Shown piece by piece: positions 2,963 through 14,847 of a DNA stretch of 31,890 nucleotides. A program made the position numbers and the translations under genes. Under the pieces are notes generated by a model. It worked only from the letters and a program-made list of their open reading frames with translations, was not told the origin of the DNA and ran no database searches. This stretch comes from a virus. Where the stretch lies: IMG/VR virus record IMGVR_UViG_3300035183_000102, positions 1 to 31,890 of that record. The stretch is one strand, 5' to 3'. Within the stretch, counting starts at the first letter, position 1, and each line of letters opens with the position of its first letter.

Positions 2963-4042
2963 ATGGCCAACATCGGACGTCTCTCTCTGCCCGCGCAGTT
3001 CTACGACCGCACCTCCGACATGCTGCTGTTGCAGCCGGAGCCGCAGTACGCGCTCGCGGCTCTGTTCCTCGACGCGCTCGGTGTCACGATGTCCATCCCG
3101 AGTGGGATGGGACTCAACGGCCGCGAGGTCATGGGCGTCGGCGCGCAGTACGCGAGCGTCGACTCGGACAGGCTGAAGCTCGCTCAGGCGCTGCCGCGTG
3201 AGCTGTTCGCGCTCACTGTCGATTTCAACGCGGCGCCCGGCAACACGATCCGCATCAACCGCCCCGCGTACAAAAACAGCGTCTACACGGAGCAGAGCCG
3301 GCGGATCCCCATCGGGTCCACGATCTCGACGACCGGCATCGCGATCTCCAGCGAGCAGACCAACCTCACGCTCTACCGCTACGGCGGACCGTGCGACGAC
3401 ACGGGAGTCGTGAAGCCGTACGCCATCGAGGCGTTCGACGCGAACATGGGCGTCCACCGGATGACCGCCATCGTCGGAAACAACCTCGCGCGCGACTACT
3501 GGCGCTTCATCGAGTCGGTTCTCGTCGCGCACGGCGATCGCGGCGCCGTGCTGTACGTCGACGGCATGAACAGCGACAACGACGCGACGACGGTCGACTC
3601 GTTCCCGTTCTCGCTGGAGCTCGTGTCGCGATGCGAGCAGGACATGGACGACTCGAACCTGCCGACGCTGCCAGATGGGAGCCGCGTGCTTCTCCTCTCG
3701 CCGAAGCAATGGAAGCAGCTCAAGCACGATCCGGAGTACGAGGCGCAGGCCGCTTACCACCGGGAGTTCGCGCTCCTGTTCCCGAACTACGTCGGCAGCG
3801 TCGGCAAGTTCCATCTGTTCAAGAGCACGATGTTGTCGAAGCCTGCCAACAGCTCGTCGGTGCCCGTGCATCGCGCCATCGCGCTCGCGCCCGGATATTT
3901 CATGGGCGGCATGGGTCGCAGGCCGCGCGTGTCGTCGGCAACGGACGACAACTACGGCGAGACGGCGAAGGTCATCTGGCTCGCCGATCACGCATTCGAG
4001 GTCGCCGACGTGCGTTTCGGTCGCTCGCTGCGCAGTGCCTGA
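2963..4042 (+). CDS. Major capsid protein
   Basis: 359 aa, the usual size for an HK97-fold coat protein, preceded by an AAGGA ribosome site and by the scaffold gene. It has an N-terminal helical arm, a beta-rich stretch (NTIRINRPAYKN) and a long amphipathic helix region (GVHRMTAIVGNNLARDYWRFIESVL, in part) that could serve as a spine helix. The C-terminal half (residues about 235-359) is mixed alpha/beta and ends in VADVRFGRSLRSA. It would form the icosahedral shell. The HK97 fold is expected from family knowledge of tailed phages and is not proven by a single motif here. Confidence 0.85.
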   Translation: MANIGRLSLPAQFYDRTSDMLLLQPEPQYALAALFLDALGVTMSIPSGMGLNGREVMGVGAQYASVDSDRLKLAQALPRELFALTVDFNAAPGNTIRINRPAYKNSVYTEQSRRIPIGSTISTTGIAISSEQTNLTLYRYGGPCDDTGVVKPYAIEAFDANMGVHRMTAIVGNNLARDYWRFIESVLVAHGDRGAVLYVDGMNSDNDATTVDSFPFSLELVSRCEQDMDDSNLPTLPDGSRVLLLSPKQWKQLKHDPEYEAQAAYHREFALLFPNYVGSVGKFHLFKSTMLSKPANSSSVPVHRAIALAPGYFMGGMGRRPRVSSATDDNYGETAKVIWLADHAFEVADVRFGRSLRSA

Positions 4043-7637: not shown

Positions 7638-9158
7638 ATGCCCGCAGCCATCGTACTCACAGGAATCAGCGCGAACGATCCGACGCCTGGCTCGTTCGAG
7701 GAGGTCAACTACGCGCAGGGCGCGGCCGGCGGCGACAACATCGCCTATCCCGTCCTCATCCTCGCGAACAAGACCTCGGCCGGATCGGCGACCGCTGACA
7801 CCGTCATCTACGGACCGGACACGCAGGTTCCGATCGTCACCGAGAGCGACATCATCAACCTCGCCGGCACTGGCAGCGAGGCCCATCGCATGTGGCTTCG
7901 GTTCACGAGGGTGAACAAGGTCTCCGCGCTGTACTTCGTGTTCGTCGCGGAGAGCACCGGCACCGCGGCGTCGCTCACGCTCACGGTCACAGGCGCGGCG
8001 ACCGCGAACGGCACGATCCGCGTGTGGGTCGTGGACGAGTTCGTCGACGTCTCCGTCTCGACAGGTGACAGCGCAGCGACGATCGCAACCAACATCGCGG
8101 CGGCGATCAACACCCAGACGCGATGGCCTGTCACGGCGGCGCAATCGACCAACACCGTGGTCATCACCGCGAGGCAGAAAGGCCCGCGTGGCAACTTCAT
8201 CGACGTGCAGACGCAGGTGATCGGATCCATCACCACCACGGTGTCGGCGTCGACCAAGACGCCATTGTCCGGCGGCGCCACGGCGGACTCCAACGCGAAC
8301 GCGCTCGCCACGATCCTTTCGAGGCGGTTCTTCTATATCGTCTCGGCCGCGGAGGATGCGACGCAGGCAGGCGCGCTGCTCTCGCAGATCAACTCGCAGG
8401 CGCTGCCGACGTCGGGCAAGCGTCAGCACATGTTCGTCGGGAGCAAGGACACGCTCGCCAACGCGATCACGCGCGCCACCGGTCTGAATGGCGCGCGCGC
8501 TGCGCTCATCTGGCAGCAGGCGTCCGACTGGACGCCAGCAGAGCTCGCCGCGCACGTCGCAGGCGTCGTCGCGCTGAAGGAAGCGGAGCAACTCCCGCGG
8601 CCGCTGCACAACTTCTCCGGCTTCGGGAACGACGCCGTCACGAGCGCAAGCTGGTTCGTGCCGGCTCCGCGCACCGGCGCAGGCCCCACGCAGGTCGAAA
8701 TCAAGTCGGCGCTCAACAACGGCATCAGCCCGATCGCGCCCAACCAGAACGGGACGAGCTACCTCGTCAAGCTCTGCACGACGCGCAGCCTGAACGGCTC
8801 CACCGCGGACTACCGCGTCCGCGACTGGCATCGGGCCACGATCCCCGACTTCTACGCGGATGCGTTGCATGCGCGCACGATCCTCCAGTTCTCCGGAAAG
8901 GACCTCGCCGACGATCCGCCGCGTGGCGCGCCGCCGCCGCCTGCGAACGTCGTCACGCCGTCTCGCTTCAGAGCCATGGTCATCGGGCTCATCAACGACT
9001 TCGCTAGCAACGCGCAGCTCAAGAACGTCGAGCAGATCAAGAACGACTTGATCGTCCAGCGCGAGGCGTCGCCGACGAACCGAATCTCCACGCGCACGCC
9101 GCTTCAGTGCATCGACATCGCGGACCAGTTCACCCACGCAATCGATCAGGTCGCGTAA
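7638..9158 (+). CDS. Contractile tail sheath protein (Mu gpL-like)
   Basis: 506 aa, typical for a sheath subunit. The N-terminus (PAAIVLTGISANDPTPGSFE) and the repeated beta strands of residues about 100-225 form the outward domains. The C-terminal third (RDWHRATIPDFYADALHART, then RFRAMVIGLINDFASN) and the last residues (IADQFTHAIDQVA) form the conserved core that encircles the tube and mediates contraction. It is followed directly by a tube gene, which fixes the identity and shows that this phage has a contractile tail. Its size and gene order match Mu and related myophages. Confidence 0.88.
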   Translation: MPAAIVLTGISANDPTPGSFEEVNYAQGAAGGDNIAYPVLILANKTSAGSATADTVIYGPDTQVPIVTESDIINLAGTGSEAHRMWLRFTRVNKVSALYFVFVAESTGTAASLTLTVTGAATANGTIRVWVVDEFVDVSVSTGDSAATIATNIAAAINTQTRWPVTAAQSTNTVVITARQKGPRGNFIDVQTQVIGSITTTVSASTKTPLSGGATADSNANALATILSRRFFYIVSAAEDATQAGALLSQINSQALPTSGKRQHMFVGSKDTLANAITRATGLNGARAALIWQQASDWTPAELAAHVAGVVALKEAEQLPRPLHNFSGFGNDAVTSASWFVPAPRTGAGPTQVEIKSALNNGISPIAPNQNGTSYLVKLCTTRSLNGSTADYRVRDWHRATIPDFYADALHARTILQFSGKDLADDPPRGAPPPPANVVTPSRFRAMVIGLINDFASNAQLKNVEQIKNDLIVQREASPTNRISTRTPLQCIDIADQFTHAIDQVA

Positions 9159-9173
9159 GGAGCGCAACGAGAC

Positions 9174-9551
9174 ATGTCGAACCTCCAGCAGTACACCGAC
9201 TTGCAAACGACCGTCGACGGCGCGCTCCTCTCAGAGCAGAACCAGGTCCAGATCCGATGGATCTCCGGCAACCACATCGTCGACACGACGCCGAAGGGCT
9301 TCGCTGGGCTTTCGCCCGGATCGGCACGCATCGAGATCCACGTCACGAACGCATGGCCTGCCGCAGGACTCGAGTACAACCCGATTCAGCGGATCAGGAC
9401 GATGCAAGAGGTCGAGCTCTCAGTGCAGGATCGATCCGGCAGGTCGCTCACCACGCGCGGGTACTTCACGGAGGCCGACGGAGGACACTCGACGAATCAG
9501 GCGAGCTCGTTCTCGTTCTCGTTCGTCGGCACATGGGCGGACTGGGAGTAA
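9174..9551 (+). CDS. Tail tube protein
   Basis: 125 aa, preceded by a GGAG ribosome site (AAGGAGCG). The sequence is beta-rich with alternating strands (DGALLSEQNQVQIRWISGNH, then ELSVQDRSGRSLTTRGYFTE), as in the barrel of stacked-hexamer tubes. It lies between the sheath and the chaperone, the standard place for the tube subunit. A strong intrinsic terminator follows, so sheath and tube can be made in greater amounts than the genes downstream. It resembles the size class of Mu gpM. Confidence 0.82.
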   Translation: MSNLQQYTDLQTTVDGALLSEQNQVQIRWISGNHIVDTTPKGFAGLSPGSARIEIHVTNAWPAAGLEYNPIQRIRTMQEVELSVQDRSGRSLTTRGYFTEADGGHSTNQASSFSFSFVGTWADWE

Positions 9552-9658: not shown

Positions 9659-10311
9659 ATGGCTGGCCCTCCTGAGCACATCGAGCCTGATGATCTGTGG
9701 CGGCAGATCACGACCATGCCGCGGCCTGGGCGCACGGTCCCGTTCCCGCGCAAAAACCCGGAGACCGGAGAGCCGGTCGGCGATGTGCACATCTGGGTGC
9801 TCACGCAGCGCGAGCAGATGGAGTGCGCGGCGGCGGCCGAGACATGCGCACGCGAACGGCTGAAGACGGCGCCGAAGGGCTCGGAGACGTCGCGCGGCTA
9901 CATCGACATCTACGAAAACGAGGCCAGCTGCCAGGTCCTCTACCGAGCTTGCCGACGCGCTAAAAATCACAATATCCCGTTTTTCCCGAGCATCGAGGCC
10001 GTCCGCGGACTCCTCGGCGACGAGGTCGGCGTGCTCGTCTCCAGCTACCTCACGATCAAGAGCGAGCTCGGGCCGATCGTCGACGAGATGAGCGAGGAGG
10101 AGGTGGATGCTTGGTGCCGCAGGCTCGCCGAAGGAGGGAGCCGCACCCCTTTAGATTTGCACTCCTTGGACGCGCTGAAGACCCTTGCGATTTCTTTGGC
10201 GCGACGCCTCTATCCCTTCTTGACGGGCACTGGCTCGCCTGGCTCGCCGCACGAAAGCGATACATCGCAAGCCTCCCCAGACCAACCTTCGACGACCCAA
10301 GGATCCGCTGA
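9659..10311 (+). CDS. Tail assembly chaperone, -1 frameshifted form (GT-like)
   Basis: Predicted product of a -1 shift at CCCTTTA (10147-10153). The first 165 residues are as in the unshifted form, then 52 residues are read from AGA 10153 to the stop at 10309-10311, giving 217 aa. The new tail contains AEDPCDFFGATPLSLLDGHW followed by LAWLAARKRY and ends FDDPRIR. An acidic FF/W-rich piece followed by a helix with ARK is typical of the T extension that recruits the tape measure in G/GT systems. Unusually, both products have nearly the same length because the two frames close four bases apart. The shift is predicted and has not been observed. Confidence 0.65.
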
Positions 10312-10315
10312 GTGA
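9659..10315 (+). CDS. Tail assembly chaperone, unshifted form (G-like)
   Basis: 218 aa, between the tube and tape measure genes, the position of tail assembly chaperones. The body (residues 1-160) has an all-helical C-terminal part with VHIWVLTQREQMECAAAAE and a long EVGVLVSSYLTIKSELGPIV helix. These proteins bind the tape measure before tube assembly and are not part of the virion. At codon 164-165 (CCT TTA) lies the heptamer C CCT TTA, preceded by AAGGAGG, where a -1 shift is predicted. In this frame translation ends in a Ser/Thr/Pro-rich tail (TGSPGSPHESDTSQASP) at 10315. The stop overlaps the GTG of the tape measure gene. Confidence 0.82.
   Translation: MAGPPEHIEPDDLWRQITTMPRPGRTVPFPRKNPETGEPVGDVHIWVLTQREQMECAAAAETCARERLKTAPKGSETSRGYIDIYENEASCQVLYRACRRAKNHNIPFFPSIEAVRGLLGDEVGVLVSSYLTIKSELGPIVDEMSEEEVDAWCRRLAEGGSRTPLDLHSLDALKTLAISLARRLYPFLTGTGSPGSPHESDTSQASPDQPSTTQGSAE
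10131..10153 (+). promoter_or_regulatory. Programmed -1 ribosomal frameshift signal
   Basis: The heptamer C CCT TTA at 10147-10153 is a perfect X XXY YYZ slippery site in the chaperone's reading frame. AAGGAGGGAG at 10131-10140 is an excellent anti-Shine-Dalgarno match ending 7-9 bases before it, the arrangement that stimulates -1 shifting in E. coli dnaX. No start codon is suitably placed after this site, so its likely use is as a stimulator. I could not identify a definite downstream stem-loop. Confidence 0.7.
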
Positions 10316-12666
10316 CGACGCCCATCGTCATCCCGCTGCGCGCCGATGGCGTCCGCGACGTCATGCGCGCGCTCCAGTCGGTCGAGGAGGCGACGCTGCG
10401 CCACGAGCGCGCCATCGCGCGCGAGCAGCAACGCGCAGCGCGTGAGCGCCAGCGCGCCCTCGATCGAGAGGCGCGCGAGAAGGTGCGCGCGATGCGGTTC
10501 GCAGACCGCGAGGTCGAACGCGCGAACAGGCAAGCCGTCCGCGAAGTGGAGCGGGCAGAGCGCGAGAAGACGAGAGCGGCCGAGCGCGAAGCGCGAGAGC
10601 GCGTGCGCGTGATGCAGGCGGCAGATCGCGACGTCGCCAGGGCGCGCGAGCAAGCGCTGCGGCAGATGATGCGCGAGGAGGAGCGCGCAAACCGCGAGGC
10701 GATGCGCTGGGTGAGGCAGCGGGAGGCCGAACAGCGCCGCCTCGACGAGCGCCTGGTCAATAGGCGCGTCGCGTTCGCGCAGGGCGTCGTCGGATCCGCG
10801 GCGGCAGGGTTCGCGTCGGGGGCGAATCGCGTGGTCGGCCTGGCCGGCGGCATGGTCAACGCTGCCATCGGCCTCGGCGGCGGCTTCTCTCTTCCGGACG
10901 TCCTCCGAGATCGCGCGGAACTCGAGCGCAGCGCAGCGCAGCTCGCAAACTCGTCGTTCATCCCGCCGTCGGTCAACGCGGATGGGACCGTCAATCCTGG
11001 TGTCGCCAGGCCCGACAAGGCGGCGATCATCGCGCGCGCTCGCGCGGTGCAAGCTGCGACCAACATCGACGCCGCGGAGCTCATCGCAGGCACGAAGGCG
11101 TATGTCGCGAAGGCTTCCGATTTCGCCGGCGGAATGGCGAATATGGAGTTTTTCGCGAAACTCGCGAAGGCCTCGGGCACCGACTTCCAGGACGTGATGA
11201 AGACGGCCGGCATCCTCCGCGTCCAGAACAAGGACCTCGGAGCGGAGGCGATGAAGTCGATGATGCTCAACATCGTCGCCCAGGGAAAACAGGGCGCCGT
11301 CGAGTTCGAGGATTTGGCGACCGTCGCAGGCAAGGTCACGCGGTCGAGCGCCGCGTACGCACTAGATCAGGCCGAGGCGCAGTCGAAGCTTCTCGCGCTC
11401 GCGCAGGTGGCCATCCGCACATCTGGCTCGCCAGAAGAAGCCGCAACGGTGCTCTCGAACCTCTCGCAGGACGCGCTCAAACACCGCGGCAGAATGCCGG
11501 CAGGCGTGTTCGACGCGCGCGGCAAGATCCTCGATCCAGCCAAGATGATCACCACCGTGTTCGAGGCATCTGGCGGCAACATGGGCACCATCCAGGACAT
11601 GGGCTTCGGCTCCAGGTCGATGAAGATGTTCCAGGCGCTCTCGCCGATCTTCGAGGAGGCGTACAAGAGCACGAAAGGCAGCGAGCAGGAGCGGCGCAAA
11701 GCCGGCGCGAAAGCGGTCGCTGCCGAGATGGAGCATCTCGCTGGCGCGAGGTACTCGGAGCAGTTGCTCAACGAGGATTTCCGGAACGTCATGGACACCG
11801 CGGCCGAGAAGGCCGACGCCGCCATGAAGCAGTTCAAGGACACGCTCGCGACCGAGCTGCTGCCCGAGTTCGTCAGGCTGATCCCGGTGCTGAAGGAGGT
11901 CACGCCGGCGTTCATGAGCGTGATGAAGAACGGCGTCCCCGCGTTTGCGCAGCTCATCGAGAGCGTCGCGAAGTTCGTCCGCGAGAACGAGGGCCTGATC
12001 AAGAGCATCTCCGCTCACCCAATCGGCGCGATCATCGCGGCAGAGGTCGTTGGATCGATCGCGAAGGCCGGCATCGGCGGCGGCGTGAGAGCTGTGATCG
12101 AGGCCGCCATTCGCGGAGGCGCAGGCGCAGGCGGCGGCGGCGGCGTTGGTGGCGCAGGCGCATTCGGCGCAGCAGGCACCGCAGGAGCCGCAGGGCTTCT
12201 CGCCGGCGCGGCGACCGCTGCATACCTGGGTCCAGTCGCAGAGGCCGCGGTCACTGGCAACGCGCAGGGCTCCGACCGATCGGCATCGATGTTCATCGAG
12301 ATCGGCAACATCCGATCGGCGCTCGGCTCAGGCCACATCACGAAAGATGAAGCGACGCGGCGGATGGCGAAGCTCCAGCAGGAGCTCGACGCCGCGAAAG
12401 CTCACTCAGGGCGAGGGGAGCAGGCGTTCGCACTCAAGACGCTCGGCATCAACACCATAAGGTCCGTCGTCACCGGCGAACGAAACGAGTCGCTCCACAC
12501 GATCCGCGAGGTCGAAAAGAACCGGCAGCTGCTCGAACAGGAACAGCAACTCACGGCAGCGCTCAGGGAGCTCGCGACGGCGATCCAGTCGAAGAAGTCC
12601 GACCAAACGCCAGATCGGCTAGCACCCATGTCGAGCCCGAGCCGCGGCGGCCCAGTGACGAAGTAG
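10312..12666 (+). CDS. Tail length tape measure protein
   Basis: 784 aa from GTG 10312, which has an AAGGA ribosome site 9 bases upstream and overlaps the chaperone stop as GTGA. Residues about 17-150 are a very long Arg/Glu/Ala coiled coil. Residues 160-200 are Gly/Ala-rich. The middle is mostly helical, and residues about 585-645 are a hydrophobic Gly/Ala segment (AGAGGGGGVGGAGAFGAAGT) that resembles the membrane-active part of tape measures. A helical, Gln/Glu-rich C-terminus follows. At the usual 0.15 nm per residue the predicted tail is about 118 nm. Identity follows from length, composition and position after the chaperone. Confidence 0.88.
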   Translation: MTTPIVIPLRADGVRDVMRALQSVEEATLRHERAIAREQQRAARERQRALDREAREKVRAMRFADREVERANRQAVREVERAEREKTRAAEREARERVRVMQAADRDVARAREQALRQMMREEERANREAMRWVRQREAEQRRLDERLVNRRVAFAQGVVGSAAAGFASGANRVVGLAGGMVNAAIGLGGGFSLPDVLRDRAELERSAAQLANSSFIPPSVNADGTVNPGVARPDKAAIIARARAVQAATNIDAAELIAGTKAYVAKASDFAGGMANMEFFAKLAKASGTDFQDVMKTAGILRVQNKDLGAEAMKSMMLNIVAQGKQGAVEFEDLATVAGKVTRSSAAYALDQAEAQSKLLALAQVAIRTSGSPEEAATVLSNLSQDALKHRGRMPAGVFDARGKILDPAKMITTVFEASGGNMGTIQDMGFGSRSMKMFQALSPIFEEAYKSTKGSEQERRKAGAKAVAAEMEHLAGARYSEQLLNEDFRNVMDTAAEKADAAMKQFKDTLATELLPEFVRLIPVLKEVTPAFMSVMKNGVPAFAQLIESVAKFVRENEGLIKSISAHPIGAIIAAEVVGSIAKAGIGGGVRAVIEAAIRGGAGAGGGGGVGGAGAFGAAGTAGAAGLLAGAATAAYLGPVAEAAVTGNAQGSDRSASMFIEIGNIRSALGSGHITKDEATRRMAKLQQELDAAKAHSGRGEQAFALKTLGINTIRSVVTGERNESLHTIREVEKNRQLLEQEQQLTAALRELATAIQSKKSDQTPDRLAPMSSPSRGGPVTK

Positions 12667-12669
12667 CCC

Positions 12670-13602
12670 ATGGCATCGACACCCGGCGCAGACATCCTCC
12701 GGCAGCTGCTCGATCTGCGCTGGCGGAACGTATCGGTGCCATACACGACGATGACCATGGAGTTCCGCCATGACCTCGTCGAGCACAAAACTCCGGACCA
12801 GGACGGGGCGCACGTCGAGGCGACGGGTCGAGCGCCGATCCAGTTCACGGCGCAGCTCCCGTTTTTGAACAACATCAAGGCCGCGCCGAACGAGCAATGG
12901 GGAGGCCACGTCCTCTATCCAGATGTTTTTCGCGATTTCGAGCGCGCGATGGAGGACAAGAGCAGCGGCGAGCTCCAGCACCCGGAGTTCGGCATCATCC
13001 TCTGCAGGCCGGTGCATTTCAAAATGAGCCTCGCGCCGGCTCCGCGCGATGGATGCTGGGTCGAGGCATCCTGGATCGAAACCCTGTCGCCGACGGAGCA
13101 GAAGGCCGACACCACGAAGCCGTCTCCAGTGACGGGTGCCATCGCGCACGCGCTGGAGCTCGACGAGCAGCTCGCGAAGCCGAGCGTACCGCTACCGAAG
13201 CGCGACGAGTTCAAGCCGACGTTCGAGGACGACATCAGAGCTCTCCAGGCGGTGACGGATCGCATCTCCGTCATGCAGCGGAAGTACGTAGGCAAGATCG
13301 ACCAGATCGCCTATCGCCTCCGCGCGCTCAGCGAGTCGATCGATCGCGCAAGCACCCCGCTGTCCCATCCGCTGCGCCAGTCGGCAGAGCGGATGCAGAC
13401 ATCGCTCGTCGCGCTGAAGGACAGCCTGCTTCGCGATGGTCGAAAGGTTCGCTACTACATCGTTCGGCAGGAGATGACGCTCGCGGCGATCGCGCTCGTG
13501 CTCCACAAGAGCGTCGGCGAGTTGCTCGATCTGAATCCAGAACTGGCGCGGAAGCCCACGGTACCGGAACTCACGGTGGTCAAGTACTACAGGACGTCGT
13601 GA
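12670..13602 (+). CDS. DNA circularisation-type baseplate protein (Mu gp43/N-like) with LysM-like C-terminus
   Basis: 310 aa. Residues about 10-150 match the style of the DNA_circ_N domain seen in Mu gpN (LDLRWRNVSVPYTTMTMEFR near the start, EHKTPDQDG, and GRAPIQFTAQLPF), a baseplate hub component. Residues 160-240 are helical. The last 50 residues (VRYYIVRQEMTLAAIALVLH, then VGELLDLNPELA, then LTVVKYYRT) have the shape of a LysM fold, as in tail proteins X and U that touch peptidoglycan or bind hub partners. Its place after the tape measure and before the gp44-like gene fits Mu gene order. Confidence 0.78.
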   Translation: MASTPGADILRQLLDLRWRNVSVPYTTMTMEFRHDLVEHKTPDQDGAHVEATGRAPIQFTAQLPFLNNIKAAPNEQWGGHVLYPDVFRDFERAMEDKSSGELQHPEFGIILCRPVHFKMSLAPAPRDGCWVEASWIETLSPTEQKADTTKPSPVTGAIAHALELDEQLAKPSVPLPKRDEFKPTFEDDIRALQAVTDRISVMQRKYVGKIDQIAYRLRALSESIDRASTPLSHPLRQSAERMQTSLVALKDSLLRDGRKVRYYIVRQEMTLAAIALVLHKSVGELLDLNPELARKPTVPELTVVKYYRTS

Positions 13603-13608
13603 GGCACC

Positions 13609-14847
13609 ATGCCGATCATTGCGTCTACGGATGACGAGGTCGCGCTAGAGCTTGTCGATAGCGGAGAACGCATCGCGCACTGGGCCGCATACTCGTTCAA
13701 CACGCACTTTCTGACGCCGACCGACGGATTCCACTTCGAGGTCGGACTGCACGATCTGACGCCGGCGGAGAGAAAGGCGCTTGCGCCAGGCGCTCGCGTG
13801 CGGCTCGTCGTGAACGGCCATGTCCACGCCACGGGCAGCATCTACGACGTGCGGTACACGCACAGCCGGCAGGGCGGCCGCGTCCTGCACGTCGAGGGCA
13901 AGGACAAGCTCGCGCCGTTCGTAGACGGCAACATCGATCCGCGCATGCGGTTTTCGGCTGGGCAGTCGCTCGCCGACGTCGTGACGAAGATTGCCGGGCA
14001 GTTCGGTTGGACGGCAGATCAAATCGTCTGGGACAACGAGGCGAACCGTCGTGTGCTCGCTGGCAAGCGAGGCACACGCACGACGGCGAAGGGCCGAGTC
14101 TCCAAGGACGTCAGGATCCACCAACTGCAGCCATACCCAGGCGAGGGCGCGTTCGCGTTCGCGTCGCGACTCACACAGCGGCACGGGCTCTGGATCTGGG
14201 CATCTGCCGACGGCGAGCAGCTCATCATCAGCGCGCCATCGTTCGATCAGGATCCTATCTTCGCGATCGACGCGAGCGAAGAGGCGCGCGCGGAAGGCTT
14301 CTCTTCGCAGCTCCACCTTTCGCTCACCGATCAGCCAGCCGTCATCCTAGCGGACGGATTCTCCGGCGGCGGCTCCTACGGCAAGAGCCGCATCAAGGCG
14401 CACATCGTCAATCCGCTCGTCGGACTCGACGAAGACGGATTCGTGCTCGACGGAGTGAGCAAGCTGCTCCTCAATCATCAGGAGTCGCGGCAGATCACCA
14501 TCACGAGGCCCGCGTCGGCGCTGATGCGCATCCCAGCGCGAACACCGGTGCCGATGTTCCTGCACGACGACGAATCGCACACGCCGGATCAGCTCGAAAA
14601 CTTCCTGCGGCGCGAGCTATCGCTGCGGATGCGCAAGGCGGTCGTCTACACGTGCACGGTGCGCGGGCACTCCAACAGCGGCGCGCCGTGGTGCGTGGAT
14701 GCCATCTGCTCGGTGAACGACGCCGGCGTCGGCCCTAGCGGCCTGCACGAGCCCATGTACATCCTCAGCCGGACGTTCCGAAAGAGCCGCACGGGCGGGA
14801 CGACGACGGACCTAGAAATGATCCTACCTGGCTCGCTGGTGTTCTGA
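13609..14847 (+). CDS. Baseplate hub protein (Mu gp44/P-like)
   Basis: 412 aa preceded by GAGG. It shows the layout of gp27/gpD/gpP hub proteins: an N-terminal beta domain with a ligand-like barrel (LVVNGHVHATGSIYDVRYTH), then HVEGKDKLAPFVDGNI, a small LysM-like region around SLADVVTKIAGQFGWT, the phrase FAFASRLTQRHGLWIWASAD and a C-terminal barrel ending SRTFRKSRTGGTTTDLEMIL. The trimer forms the tail hub that holds the spike. It is translationally coupled to the spike gene by TGATG overlap. Assignment is strong from motif order and neighbours. Confidence 0.85.
   Translation: MPIIASTDDEVALELVDSGERIAHWAAYSFNTHFLTPTDGFHFEVGLHDLTPAERKALAPGARVRLVVNGHVHATGSIYDVRYTHSRQGGRVLHVEGKDKLAPFVDGNIDPRMRFSAGQSLADVVTKIAGQFGWTADQIVWDNEANRRVLAGKRGTRTTAKGRVSKDVRIHQLQPYPGEGAFAFASRLTQRHGLWIWASADGEQLIISAPSFDQDPIFAIDASEEARAEGFSSQLHLSLTDQPAVILADGFSGGGSYGKSRIKAHIVNPLVGLDEDGFVLDGVSKLLLNHQESRQITITRPASALMRIPARTPVPMFLHDDESHTPDQLENFLRRELSLRMRKAVVYTCTVRGHSNSGAPWCVDAICSVNDAGVGPSGLHEPMYILSRTFRKSRTGGTTTDLEMILPGSLVF

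Follow-up and report, generated by a model that had tools for sequence, protein, structure and literature searches.

Probable programmed -1 ribosomal frameshifting across an unusually long, conserved overlap in a family of phage tail assembly chaperone genes

Frameshifting in tail assembly chaperone genes is among the most widespread of recoding events, and the features by which it is normally spotted are a GT product longer than G and a short overlap close to where G ends. The chaperone proteins diverge widely, and membership of a sequence family does not strictly define a G/GT gene. In phage lambda, GT is longer than G (PMC5009743), and among the 2,476 joined frameshift genes of the SEA-PHAGES training set the slip site averages 26 nt before the 0-frame stop (PMC10885494). 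The tail gene of phage Mu shifts by -2, and E. coli dnaX shifts on A AAA AAG, terminates one codon past the shift and carries a 3' stem-loop; the spacing at which a Shine-Dalgarno (SD) sequence stimulates -1 shifting is 9-14 nt (PMC5009743). Here, we analyzed a stretch of viral DNA of 31,890 nucleotides (IMG/VR record IMGVR_UViG_3300035183_000102, positions 1-31,890; hereafter the window) together with homologous loci. The gene at 9659-10315 very probably encodes a tail assembly chaperone whose two protein products arise through programmed -1 ribosomal frameshifting. Sequence comparison strongly supports a frameshift of the known G/GT kind in a chaperone family undescribed so far, whose overlap is of unusual length and, in one clade, under constraint in both frames. 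The relevant features are as follows.

7638-9158, + strand: tail sheath gene (phrog_165 tail sheath, E 1.1e-68)
9174-9551, + strand: probable tail tube gene, following the sheath gene (weak PF10618 Tail_tube match, E 0.088, below cut-off)
9659-10315, + strand: probable tail assembly chaperone gene, 0-frame (G) product of 218 aa (23-43% identity to homologues; gene order)
10131-10137, + strand: internal SD AAGGAGG, presumed 5' stimulator, 9 nt upstream of the slippery site
10147-10153, + strand: slippery heptamer C CCT TTA, in frame with the ATG at 9659; P site CCT to CCC, A site TTA to TTT
10147-10311, + strand: -1 frame tail (T domain), 54 codons and then TGA (10309-10311), conserved in 24 homologues
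10154-10311, + strand: stretch read in both frames, with dual constraint measured in a related clade
10312-12666, + strand: tape measure gene (phrog_794 tape measure, E 3.1e-8)
12670-13602: DNA_circ_N protein gene
13609-14847: gpP-like gene

The tail module of the contig is Mu-like and contractile, with sheath, DNA_circ_N, gpP-like, baseplate J and gp48-like genes. Within it, the ORF at 9659-10315 follows the tail tube gene and precedes the tape measure gene, as a G/GT gene should, and the order sheath, tube, chaperone, tape measure is common to the window and its homologues. The tape measure gene begins with a GTG (10312) that directly follows the -1 stop and shares bases with the 0-frame stop, TGA at 10313-10315. 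Pfam and PHROG scans of both products gave no credible match to a described family, nor do the homologues match one, and homology search found no homologues in cellular genomes. Elsewhere in the window, an ORF at 24573-25358 matches Peptidase_C1, the papain family of cysteine proteases (PF00112, E 4e-13), which is unexpected in a phage tail/late-gene region.

AlphaFold2 (AF2) models, for which the alignment input left out one row from the annotated phage collection, predict for G a folded body (residues 1-161), a helix (170-189) and a disordered end that includes the distal 0-frame tail (193-218), with a mean pLDDT of 79.6. The -1 tail modelled alone forms a compact three-helix fold (pLDDT 88). 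Fold searches with these models point weakly to tail assembly chaperones. The best named viral match was a TAC protein (E 0.016, probability 0.99), and the HK97 tail assembly chaperone structure (2ob9) bears a weak fold likeness to the G model (TM 0.48-0.54 on the target), with Foldseek E-values of 1.3-3.4 that are not significant. The same kind of search with the T domain returned nothing meaningful.

An earlier note on this DNA had placed the heptamer in frame at 10147-10153 and had the two frames closing four bases apart; both statements are correct, the phase being set by the ATG at 9659 and the frames ending at 10311 (-1) and 10315 (0). A dip in base composition, which it took as a signal of overlap, proved weak and unspecific, since GC content is 58.7% at 10150-10299 but also 60% at 9850-10049. 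CCCTTTA occurs once in the window, both strands counted, against 0.29 expected, and its occurrence alone is not significant because at least one copy appeared in 25 of 100 shuffled windows. Likewise, the -1 frame stays open in 41% of synonymous-codon randomisations (P = 0.41), which is not significant for the window alone. Codon choice around the site is more informative than either the openness of the frame in a single genome or the heptamer count. TTA accounts for 1 of the 356 Leu codons in the window's 14 structural genes, and that one is the A-site codon (3 of 658 in the long ORFs); AAGGAGG, for its part, is built from the minority codons GAA GGA GGG (usage 19, 17, and 15%). It is the homologues, rather than the window alone, that make the case for frameshifting decisive.

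Homologues were gathered via the 0-frame protein and the sheath gene, with no part played by the heptamer in selection, and the chaperone was located in each relative by profile search. The resulting 25 loci comprise 24 homologues and the window, and include two close pairs (L018/L019 and L006/L008). C CCT TTN is present at homologous codons in 21 of the 25 (TTA in 16), and three others have a different canonical XXXYYYZ heptamer, namely T TTT TTG three codons downstream of the homologous position in L018 and L019 and T TTC CCT one codon upstream in L015. In the remaining locus, L005, the site is degraded (T CCT TTT) and there is no SD, yet the -1 tail is kept. An open -1 tail of 48-77 codons is found in all 25 loci, and a motif around G-[HQ]-x-L-x-W-x-A is recognisable in nearly all of them. 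Conservation of this tail exceeds what the 0-frame protein dictates: when the window's 0-frame protein was held fixed and its codons were redrawn synonymously 1000 times, the summed score of the -1 tail against the homologues was 1455, compared with 550 +- 63 for the null (maximum 973; z 14.3, 0/1000), and the real tail outscored the null with every homologue. The homologue checks that the earlier note had proposed, for the heptamer and for the -1 tail, therefore came out in favor of frameshifting. At the level of sequence, the comparison establishes the site, its conservation and that of a domain in the shifted frame, as in G/GT genes.

Several loci also show rearrangements near the chaperone gene. 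In three of them, a second, diverged chaperone copy without a slippery site or -1 tail lies directly upstream of the frameshifting gene (L005:2394-3017, L016:4898-5485, and L021:4785-5468). The -1 reads of these paralogous G copies close within 11 codons, and the copies serve as a natural negative control; they are possibly dedicated G-only genes. In L005, the slippery site of the downstream copy is degraded too. Two adjacent tail-tube-like genes, an apparent duplication, lie between sheath and chaperone in L004 (2174-2548 and 2569-2988). Lastly, a 273-aa ORF beginning VKTCATCKHERDDSEF lies between the sheath and tube genes of the closely related contigs L008 (1590-2411) and L006 (1209-2030) and is absent from the others; as a guess, it may be an inserted endonuclease-like gene.

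Selection on the two frames was most readily followed in a clade of 17 loci. There, the identical-codon ratio at conserved residues was 1.15-1.39 upstream of the site, 1.34-2.43 within the overlap and 1.04-1.31 past the -1 stop; locus pairs in the clade are not independent, so these ratios are descriptive, and the return to baseline past the -1 stop acts as a built-in control. Among pairs in the 60-75% identity band, the differences at the three codon positions show the ordinary pattern at first (0.27, 0.22, 0.49), level out in the second part of the overlap (0.21, 0.30, 0.26), and are back to the ordinary pattern afterwards (0.31, 0.29, 0.52). Synonymous suppression, which the earlier note had suggested looking for in both frames, is thus confined to the overlap in this clade. 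When the overlap is read in the -1 frame, its codons too are more conserved than usage predicts (ratio 1.5-2.5), and we conclude that both frames are constrained there. The dual coding proposed in the earlier note accordingly holds across the overlap of the larger clade, but constraint is partly segregated in the window's own subgroup, which is too divergent for the codon-ratio test. In that subgroup, 0-frame constraint falls mainly on the first ~25 codons past the site and -1 constraint mainly on the second half. The first ~25 codons are conserved in the 0 frame with z 5.6 against a -1-synonymous null, and the value of z 3.5 for residues 27 to the tail end was discounted because the tail is of low complexity.

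How much of the window's overlap serves both products may be read in two ways. It is possible, at a little short of an even chance, that the 0-frame and -1 C-terminal domains are both functional and selected over the whole overlap, so that the frameshift swaps one for the other and neither product is a truncated form. Alternatively, the frameshift may be real while the window's distal 0-frame tail is non-functional filler, with the T domain overlapping largely unconstrained sequence; this variant is compatible with programmed frameshifting, and we regard it as evenly balanced. The predicted disorder of residues 193-218 and an S/P/T-rich distal stretch that differs among relatives speak for it. 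Against it stand the 0-frame conservation of the first ~25 post-site codons, part of which is predicted to be helical (170-189), and the constraint of the sister clade in both frames over the whole overlap.

The near-equal lengths that the earlier note stressed are true of the window, where unshifted and shifted (tandem slippage) products are predicted at 218 and 217 residues with different tails, but they are not fixed in the family, since the stop-to-stop offset ranges from -104 to +133 nt among relatives. The 0-frame stop lies past the -1 stop in 19 of the 25 loci (by 49-133 nt in 18, and in the window by 4 nt). The order of the stops is reversed, at a distance of 17-104 nt, in L004, L005, L016, L018, L019, and L021. 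The usual rule of a longer shifted product, which does not strictly define G/GT genes, therefore fails in the window. In a sheath tree, L015 (+52) is the partner of the window, and both lie inside a group in which GT is otherwise longer, indicating that length order has changed within the family. The near-equal lengths in the window are thus one point on the family's range, and not evidently a designed feature.

Could the -1 tail be reached by a route other than a ribosomal shift? It might be a small gene of its own, with ribosomes initiating internally from AAGGAGG. A suitably placed, strong SD does exist, and -1 frame GTG or TTG codons occur about 36 nt upstream of the site in some loci. In the window, however, the nearest -1 starts are upstream of the SD (-36 and -33), and none occurs in the first 60 nt past the site. 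L021 contradicts internal initiation more directly, as its -1 stop abuts the heptamer, which makes the heptamer the point where the -1 ORF begins, and no start codon is close by; in L002 and L040 a -1 stop lies 18 nt upstream of the heptamer, again without a nearby start. Only a shift close to the site can therefore give access to the -1 tails of these three loci. L004 and L005 also lack a -1 start near the heptamer, and conservation of the heptamer in frame tells further against internal initiation, which we judge very unlikely. Transcriptional slippage could in principle yield similar proteins. Bacterial transcriptional slippage has been described on runs of 9 A or T (PMC5009743), whereas CCCTTT holds no long homopolymer, and the conserved codon phase and upstream SD are not needed by RNA polymerase; this route seems more improbable still. 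Chance, with a GC-rich gene merely happening to carry both a heptamer and a second frame free of stops, would fit the window-only statistics but is refuted by conservation of the site and -1 tail across 24 homologues and by synonymous suppression limited to the overlap, and is hardly credible.

From these comparisons we infer programmed -1 frameshifting, meaning the slip itself, its efficiency, the effect of the stimulators and the roles of G and T. Two things would hold ribosomes up at C CCU UUA, the great rarity of UUA in the phage and the pairing of the anti-Shine-Dalgarno with AAGGAGG nine bases earlier, and a fraction of the ribosomes would slip back one base and read on in the -1 frame. 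Unshifted ribosomes would make G, with its folded body, one further helix and a disordered tail, and shifted ribosomes would make GT, with the same body joined to the compact T domain of three helices. If the analogy with lambda holds, G may coat the tape measure protein while T recruits tail-tube subunits.

Stimulation probably comes from the rare UUA codon in the A site and from the internal SD. All 13 of the 13 clade loci aligned carry GGAGGG and CCCTTTA unchanged, and third positions are suppressed over the 10 codons upstream of the site (0.13-0.18 vs. 0.49-0.54; 50-75% identity bands). SD and site are 9 nt apart in the window and about 13 nt apart in the clade, both inside the published 9-14 nt range, as in dnaX. 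Since the SD is absent or weak in L005, L016, L018-L021, and L038, it is a feature of the clade and not a requirement. Single and consensus folding found no convincing conserved 3' RNA structure; the window's downstream hairpin begins 17 nt past the slip site, and downstream folding z-scores were between -1.35 and 1.74 in the loci tested, except in L004 (-4.71). Given this lack of a conserved 3' structure, stimulation would fall to the SD and rare codon alone. In L004, a strong predicted RNA structure (3480-3569) lies directly downstream of a C CCT TTG site, the sole case among those tested, and this locus may use a 3' stimulator.

The chaperone family described here breaks both of the habits by which such frameshifts are recognised, a short overlap and a longer GT, and similar cases are easily missed. 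Indeed, in one test set PRFect recovered only 2 of the 43 cases in which more than 51 nt separated the site from the stop after it (PMC10885494). We found no earlier report of CCCTTTA or of dual-coded tail chaperones in the literature, of which few subscription papers were covered, and this is weak evidence of novelty. Running from loci with a longer GT to loci with a longer G, the family offers a natural series for asking what the 0-frame tail does. It also appears that a rare A-site codon and an internal SD replace RNA structure in this frameshift.

Compared with known systems, the locus shares features with several and matches none throughout. The frameshifting tail gene of phage Mu belongs to the same type of Mu-like contractile tail module (sheath, DNA_circ_N, gpP, and gp48-like genes), and its shift is -2 where the window's is -1. 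The likeness to dnaX drawn in the earlier note stands for the upstream internal SD at a -1-stimulating distance, and in both systems the unshifted product is at least as long as the shifted one; it does not extend to the type of heptamer or to the 3' stem-loop. Moreover, the -1 tail does not terminate at once, being 48-77 codons long in all loci, so that the shift is followed by an entire conserved domain. From slip site to 0-frame stop, the window spans 168 nt, vs. the SEA-PHAGES average of 26 nt. The closest counterpart is gpG/gpGT of lambda and the corresponding tail genes of tailed phages, with which the window shares the position between tail tube and tape measure, a -1 slip on X XXY YYZ and a conserved C-terminal domain in the shifted frame; it differs from lambda in that its shifted product is one residue shorter than the unshifted one.
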